A DNA stretch of 64,000 nt from Gammaproteobacteria bacterium. Its GTDB lineage: Bacteria > Pseudomonadota > Gammaproteobacteria > Burkholderiales > Burkholderiaceae_D. Shown one piece after another: positions 36,105 through 40,246 of this stretch. The number at the start of each line of letters is the position of its first letter. Position 1 is the first letter of the stretch. The translations under genes and the position numbers were made by a program. Under the pieces are notes generated by a model. The model was given only the letters and a program-made list of their open reading frames with translations. It did not search any database and had not been told where the DNA came from. The stretch spans positions 1 through 64,000 of the forward strand of contig CAJCIC010000002.1 of the NCBI GenBank assembly GCA_903970185.1. Direction: 5' to 3'.

Positions 36105-36353
36105 ATGAACATGATTTACAACTCGTCGAACTATTGCGTCGTTGAGTTCGGCGCAGCCAGCGCGCCCGACACAGCTGGTTTTGAGATCATGGATAAACAG
36201 GCCCGGCGCGAGATTTATCTCGCAGGCGCGCTCGCCGAAGGCTTTCGCCGCGGCGTCGCCGAGTTGATCGCGCAGCAGCCAAGCATCGAGGAAGTCGACG
36301 ATTTCCTGTCGCAGTTCGACTCGCTCATGACGCAGCCGATGATCCTGCACTAG
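36105..36353 (+). CDS. DUF3567 family protein
   Basis: 82 residues, the family size. It runs MNMIYNSSNYCVVEFGA, then GFEIMDKQARREIYLAGALAE, and PSIEEVDDFLSQFDSLMTQPMILH, matching DUF3567, a family found mainly in betaproteobacteria. The function is unknown. A GGAGG precedes the start. It lies directly before the metH leader and on the same strand, but the leader has its own promoter element. Confidence 0.85.
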   Translation: MNMIYNSSNYCVVEFGAASAPDTAGFEIMDKQARREIYLAGALAEGFRRGVAELIAQQPSIEEVDDFLSQFDSLMTQPMILH

Positions 36354-36380
36354 GCGGCAGCACGCCTTGGGGCGTGCGGC

Positions 36381-36386
36381 TATAAT
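36381..36386 (+). promoter_or_regulatory. Probable -10 element of the metH promoter
   Basis: A perfect TATAAT lies at 36381-36386, six bases before the riboswitch P1 helix. It would place the transcript start near 36392-36393, exactly where the aptamer begins. No good -35 hexamer is seen at 16-18 bases; the region there contains a GCACGCC/GGCGTGC hairpin (36360-36377). Confidence 0.6.
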
Positions 36387-36391
36387 CGTTG

Positions 36392-36445
36392 TGGCGCCGA
36401 TTTGAATCAGCTTGCGGGCGCCTTAAAAATCCGGCTAAAGCGAGG
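36392..36445 (+). promoter_or_regulatory. SAM-II riboswitch aptamer upstream of metH
   Basis: All conserved blocks of the SAM-II (metA-motif) aptamer appear in order: P1 GGCGCC (36393-36398) pairing with GGCGCC (36417-36422), loop GATTTG (36399-36404), AGCTTGC (36409-36415), the TTAAA linker (36423-36427) and GCTAAAG (36434-36440), whose GCT can pair with AGC of the loop as a pseudoknot. SAM-II folds sense S-adenosylmethionine. The position directly before metH, which makes methionine for SAM, fits feedback control. Seen by eye only; a covariance search is needed. Confidence 0.85.
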
Positions 36446-36449
36446 CAGC

Positions 36450-36480
36450 ACCCGCCCGTTTTTCCGGCGGGTTTTTTTTT
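36450..36480 (+). terminator. metH: Rho-independent terminator in the metH leader
   Basis: ACCCGCC (36450-36456) and GGCGGGT (36466-36472) form a seven-base-pair stem around a nine-base loop, followed by a run of T residues to 36480. It lies 25 bases before the metH start codon and just after the SAM-II aptamer. The aptamer segment CGGGCG (36415-36420) can pair with CGCCCG (36453-36458), which would open the terminator. Confidence 0.88.

Positions 36481-36505: not shown

Positions 36506-40246
<3,741 letters not shown>

Follow-up and report, generated by a model that had tools for sequence, protein, structure and literature searches.

Introduction

In alpha- and betaproteobacteria, riboswitches of the SAM-II class were already known in 2007 to occur mostly with terminators (PMC2258182), and their presence in Alpha-, Beta- and Gammaproteobacteria has been published (PMC2704228). 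In the case of the metZ leader of Sinorhizobium, termination has been proposed together with cellular data (PMC9373788). Leyn 2014 (PMC4239095) reported SAM_alpha, the RF00521 element, in Rhizobiales and Rhodobacterales only, and presented as new a 'metXZ' element from 35 betaproteobacterial genomes. This element consists of a pseudoknot of regions 1-4 and 2-6 followed by a terminator, and is located upstream of metX or, in Nitrosospira, Thiobacillus and Methylophilales, upstream of metZ. In the same survey (PMC4239095), betaproteobacterial metK was left without a known regulator.

Here we describe the leader of a metH gene, for which an initial annotation had proposed a SAM-II riboswitch. The whole stretch of DNA that was analysed, 64,000 nucleotides in length, is referred to as the window, and all features lie on its plus strand unless stated otherwise.

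Architecture of the metH leader

The leader is located between a DUF3567 gene (36105-36353; PF12091, E 2.3e-32) and metH (36506-40246). The latter encodes 1246 amino acids and is, as annotated, a complete cobalamin-dependent methionine synthase with five Pfam domains, namely the homocysteine-transferase, pterin, two B12 and activation domains (Met_synt_B12, E 5.8e-119). The host is a betaproteobacterium, as initially read from the sequence: relatives of the same family and order are found on contigs named Burkholderiales, and a DUF3567 gene stands in front of metH.

A perfect TATAAT box at 36381-36386 could serve as the -10 element of the likely metH promoter, and an ATAAT box is found at about the same position in six other metH leaders (L213, L215, L217, L202, L203, L013). 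The box itself thus stands as first described, whereas no -35 box for this promoter passed the promoter scan. Transcription would start a few bases 5' of P1, so that the RNA would open with the aptamer. An in-frame TTG at 36389 was considered as the start of a leader peptide; its frame continues through the terminator and it is best taken as chance.

All of the SAM-II blocks that had been named for 36381-36480 are present, in order and in place. In detail, stem P1 is formed by six pairs between GGCGCC at 36393-36398 and GGCGCC at 36417-36422, as seen in the sequence and in the RF00521 alignment, and encloses the GAUUUG...CUUGC loop. L1 (GAUUUG, GATTTG in the DNA; 36399-36404) is nearly invariant among relatives, and we take it to be the loop that contacts SAM in the solved SAM-II structures. 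The 5' strand of the P2 pseudoknot, UCAGCUUGC (36407-36415), includes the AGCTTGC block (36409-36415); its UC belongs to P2b and its last GC to P2a. Past P1 follow L3, UUAAAAAUCC (36423-36432), which starts with the TTAAA block (36423-36427) and carries a conserved A-rich AAAU block, and the 3' strand of P2, GCUAAAGCGA (36434-36443), with the GCTAAAG block at 36434-36440. Conservation, covariation and folding support this latter strand, whose AAAGCG could also act as an antiterminator. The resulting pairs are G36414-C36435 and C36415-G36434 for P2a (GC/GC) and C36408-G36442 and U36407-A36443 for P2b (UC/GA). Downstream, an intrinsic terminator (ACCCGCC...GGCGGGU plus a U tract; 36450-36480) is supported by the sequence, by folding and by the scan that also covered the promoter. 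This terminator was absent from the initial account of the leader.

Assignment to the SAM-II family

The covariance model RF00521, which had been suggested as a check, matched the leader at 36384-36455 over the full model length (1-79) with 35.8 bits and an E value of 6.4e-7 in a permissive scan of 191 bases. At the scale of the whole genome (3.7 Mb), the E value was 3.0e-6. Because the score falls 0.2 bits short of the Rfam gathering cut-off of 36 bits, which is a curation threshold, a scan of the window at the Rfam default cut-off gave zero matches anywhere. Only 2 of 17 related matches pass this threshold, which is therefore too strict for this lineage. To avoid circularity, a model (R3) was built from 13 betaproteobacterial relatives, leaving out the window and the closest metH homologue. 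On the 64 kb window it returned 71.2 bits and an E value of 2.5e-21 at 36382-36447. Its runner-up, at 39251-39312 inside metH, was weak (18.6 bits) and is taken as chance rather than as a second SAM-II. Rfam families other than RF00521 stayed far under their cut-offs, including SAM-II with long loops (RF01726; 15.5 bits against a cut-off of 44, E 1.3), and SAM-V gave zero matches at the leader with E values up to 10. Judged by covariance-model homology, the leader is a SAM-II member and a chance match is excluded.

The pairing was then compared across 132 non-redundant SAM-II leaders obtained by pattern search. The outer P1 pairs covary: the first pair beyond the fixed search pattern is formed in all 132 of them, in four pair types, and its outward neighbour in 92 of 132, where 56.5 were expected. 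P2b occurs in a single register, in which the bases at -3 and -4 before CUUGC face those at +3 and +4 after GCUAAA. The -4:+4 pair is present in 96 of the 132 leaders compared to 75 expected (z 5.1), mainly as UA, UG, AU, GC and CG, so that P2b covaries; that P2b comprises two pairs only counts against the SAM-II reading of the leader. The minimum-energy z-score of the leader (-0.79) was uninformative, as is expected for a pseudoknot combined with a terminator.

Mode of action

Folds were calculated with the aptamer strand free and blocked. The pair probability of the terminator was 0.002 in the free fold; blocking L3 together with the P2 strand, as a stand-in for the SAM-bound state, increased it to 0.83-0.999, and blocking GCUAAAGC alone again made the terminator the best fold of the leader. 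The minimum-free-energy folds contain a predicted antiterminator hairpin (36437-36462) that pairs 36437-36442 with 36457-36462 and 36444-36446 with 36454-36456. In folds of the growing transcript, AAAGCG pairs with CGUUUU once 36462 has been made, ahead of the 3' arm of the terminator. As the pseudoknot strand and the terminator exclude each other in these predicted folds, the leader is interpreted as a transcription-terminating OFF switch.

At low SAM, the strand GCUAAAGCG would lie outside the pseudoknot and pair with the 5' side of the terminator (AAAGCG/CGUUUU and GGC/GCC), so that the terminator would be blocked and metH transcribed. At high SAM, the ligand would sit between L1, P2 and L3 and lock GCUAAAGCG into the P2 pseudoknot. 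The terminator hairpin would then form and transcription would stop near 36480, before metH. Altogether, we consider it very likely that this is a SAM-II riboswitch which switches metH off via transcription attenuation.

Comparisons with shuffled sequences and with relatives speak partly for and partly against this reading. The antiterminator duplex of the window is barely better than shuffled sequences (z -1.7). Among 100 terminator-bearing relatives, complementarity between the P2 strand and the 5' side of the terminator exceeds that of shuffles (mean z -1.25), and exact matches to GCUUUGGC and GCUUUAGC occur 7 and 5 times, with 0.2 and 0.1 expected, respectively. Equilibrium switching of more than 0.3, a weak general test, was seen in 14 of the 100 relatives compared to 5-8 for control blocks. 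In most relatives the antiterminator would therefore have to be kinetic or inactive, and the sharp result of the window is not to be generalised. Going by these folds, the window is an unusually clean switching case of a mechanism that could in general be kinetic.

These observations bear on the possible alternatives. That SAM-II acts here on translation or RNA stability, the U-tract hairpin being constitutive or chiefly marking where a small RNA ends, is unlikely. A small-RNA reading has been published for the Sinorhizobium metA leader (PMC9373788) and the terminator dominates at equilibrium in most relatives, with P2 blocked or free. In the window, however, the predicted folds make terminator and pseudoknot strand clearly exclusive; moreover, metH starts about 25 bases past the U tract and no anti-Shine-Dalgarno pairing to the aptamer was identified. 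We regard as very improbable a SAM-II-like fold that controls metH through another ligand, e.g. SAH. Its L1 and GCUAAA core are identical to the RF00521 consensus, SAM-II did not respond to 1 mM SAH (PMC1273637), and the genome holds a separate SAH riboswitch right downstream of a metK fragment (contig C132). These points stand against the precedents of SAM-I variants switched to spermidine (PMC10853860) and of Comamonadaceae metH being assigned to SAH-riboswitch regulons (PMC4239095).

That the locus encodes, in place of a riboswitch, a minus-strand antisense RNA acting in trans (Burkholderia Bp2_287 sRNA, RF02424) has a negligible probability. RF02424 does score 23 bits on that strand over the leader (36360-36474), but its cut-off is 70 bits, and the match arises because its reverse-complemented consensus is SAM-II sequence; the candidate was rejected at this locus. 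Seven of eight RF02424 loci (L174-L181) lie opposite a metX or metZ leader, and RF02424 is therefore probably SAM-II annotated on the wrong strand.

Methionine genes with SAM-II leaders

In the pattern search, metH was the target in 11 of the 132 leaders, including those of Methyloversatilis, Accumulibacter and Rhodocyclaceae, and further cases were found by model. Among the best 30 matches in the family of the window, 27 precede metX, two metH (one being the window itself) and one metZ. Thus, metH is a minority but recurrent SAM-II target. The view that SAM-II before a betaproteobacterial metH is less familiar has weaker support, as SAM-II in Betaproteobacteria had been published and metH leaders with SAM-II recur across many lineages.

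In the same genome, SAM-II also precedes metZ (contig C60), and a long-loop SAM-II precedes metX just beyond the window (contig C2, 70426-70526; L225:1501-1601). The SAM-II targets found in this genome, i.e. metH, metZ and metX, are all methionine genes, and consequently the steps from homoserine via homocysteine to methionine carry SAM-II leaders. The step to SAM, catalysed by the metK product, carries a relative of SAM-II, as described in the following section. A search for metE as a backup methionine synthase found none in the genome, which is 93% complete. MetH is therefore probably the sole methionine synthase, allowing for genes that the assembly may lack, and its leader offers a clear attenuator model for this step.

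The comparison extends to the metXZ element (PMC4239095). SAM-II leaders and metXZ share taxa and genes as well as a pseudoknot followed by a terminator, and the betaproteobacterial metX and metZ leaders examined hold SAM-II (L034, L025 and L081 for metZ, and many for metX). The orphan metXZ element is therefore very probably SAM-II, a conclusion drawn from the coincidence of gene and taxon. In L034, L025, L081, L015, L017 and L144-L161, the metXZ gene and taxon coincide with a SAM-II that the Rfam cut-off misses. As a whole, the Rfam SAM-II model and its cut-off miss most of the betaproteobacterial copies found here.

Two other observations were made in these searches. Eight leaders (L018, L019, L038, L114, L132, L137, L211, L212) are tandem arrangements in which another SAM-II-like aptamer, in many cases with GAC/GUC, lies a short way past SAM-II and its terminator; 44 tandem pairs have already been published (PMC9481103), and the arrangement is not regarded as new. 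Pattern matches were also seen on contigs labelled Acidimicrobiia and Planctomycetota (L048, L059, L110, L096), possibly as a result of mislabelled bins or of transfer.

An element upstream of metK

With weaker matches included, model R1 matched at least once in 373 of the 393 family genomes, and the weaker matches that were inspected were mostly metK leaders. In the genome of the window, such a SAM-II-like leader precedes metK (L228:1332-1410), with CCCGCUAGGUUAAUCGACAACUUGCGGAGCGGG followed by CGCUAAAGCGUC, and a repeat after CGCUAAAGCGUC could sequester the ribosome-binding site. The general pattern is CCGCCGAGUUAAUAGACAACUUGCGAGGCGG...AAAU.UCGCUAAAGCGUCGCAG, followed by a segment complementary to the ribosome-binding region of metK. 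Characteristic features are GAGUUAAU replacing GAUUUGA, P2b of the type GAC/GUC, and a predicted anti-Shine-Dalgarno platform. Examples occur across Burkholderiales (L205:1501-1572, L186, L209, L231, L239, L251 and others).

Within the order, a dedicated model for this variant (R2) found matches at E 1e-4 in 167 of 300 genomes, and within the class at E 1e-7 in 9 of 274. Not all of these matches are confirmed before metK, and the weaker ones will include some ordinary SAM-II. Among the best 30 R2 matches, 20 lie before metK. In an alignment of 54 sequences, fitted to P1 and not to P2, P1 and P2 together are 94% paired and covary strongly, with seven pairs changed on both sides; slid versions are 30-42% paired. 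Ten metK-type and tandem loci gave no Rfam match to the variant at cut-off; for one of the ten the best match was RF00521 with 15.1 bits and E 0.2. In the literature searched, which covered papers available outside subscription, no description of the variant was found.

Because the replacement of GAUUUGA by GAGUUAAU affects the loop that contacts SAM, the ligand of the metK variant is not to be assumed. On balance, we favor a view in which the metH switch is part of a Burkholderiales SAM-II system (metX, metZ, metH) with an undescribed sister variant at metK, which would use a translational anti-Shine-Dalgarno platform and possibly a changed ligand preference. A SAM-II-like element before metK, outside Rfam, bears on the open question of how betaproteobacterial metK is controlled. 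It is the most novel lead of this analysis, and the interest of the metH leader lies mainly in the wider set that it exposes.

Some metK-type elements were seen before genes other than metK, metX, metZ or metH (L222:330-402, and L245, L246, L249 and L253 with R2). The frames that follow are a MoxR-like ATPase frame and MFDCYLE/MYDCLQ frames.

Relation to described elements

In its overall design, the metH leader resembles SAM_alpha as defined by Corbino 2005 (PMC1273637). Both combine P1, the GAUUUG loop, CUUGC, the P2 pseudoknot, UUAAA and GCUAAAG, and both have a promoter just 5', a methionine gene 3' and a terminator past P2. The leader differs in its shorter P2b (UC/GA, compared to GGCC/GGCC in SAM_alpha), in the AGCUUGCGGGCGC signature typical of betaproteobacterial copies, and in having metH as its target; its score remains 0.2 bits under the RF00521 cut-off. 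With the metZ SAM-II of Sinorhizobium (PMC9373788) it shares the order of SAM-II and terminator and a predicted SAM-triggered termination, although the latter system is alphaproteobacterial, precedes another gene and has cellular data. SAM-II with long loops (RF01726) and SAM-V share with it the H-type pseudoknot and the same core logic. As a SAM-II attenuator, the metH leader is well formed but ordinary, apart from a target that is less commonly seen.
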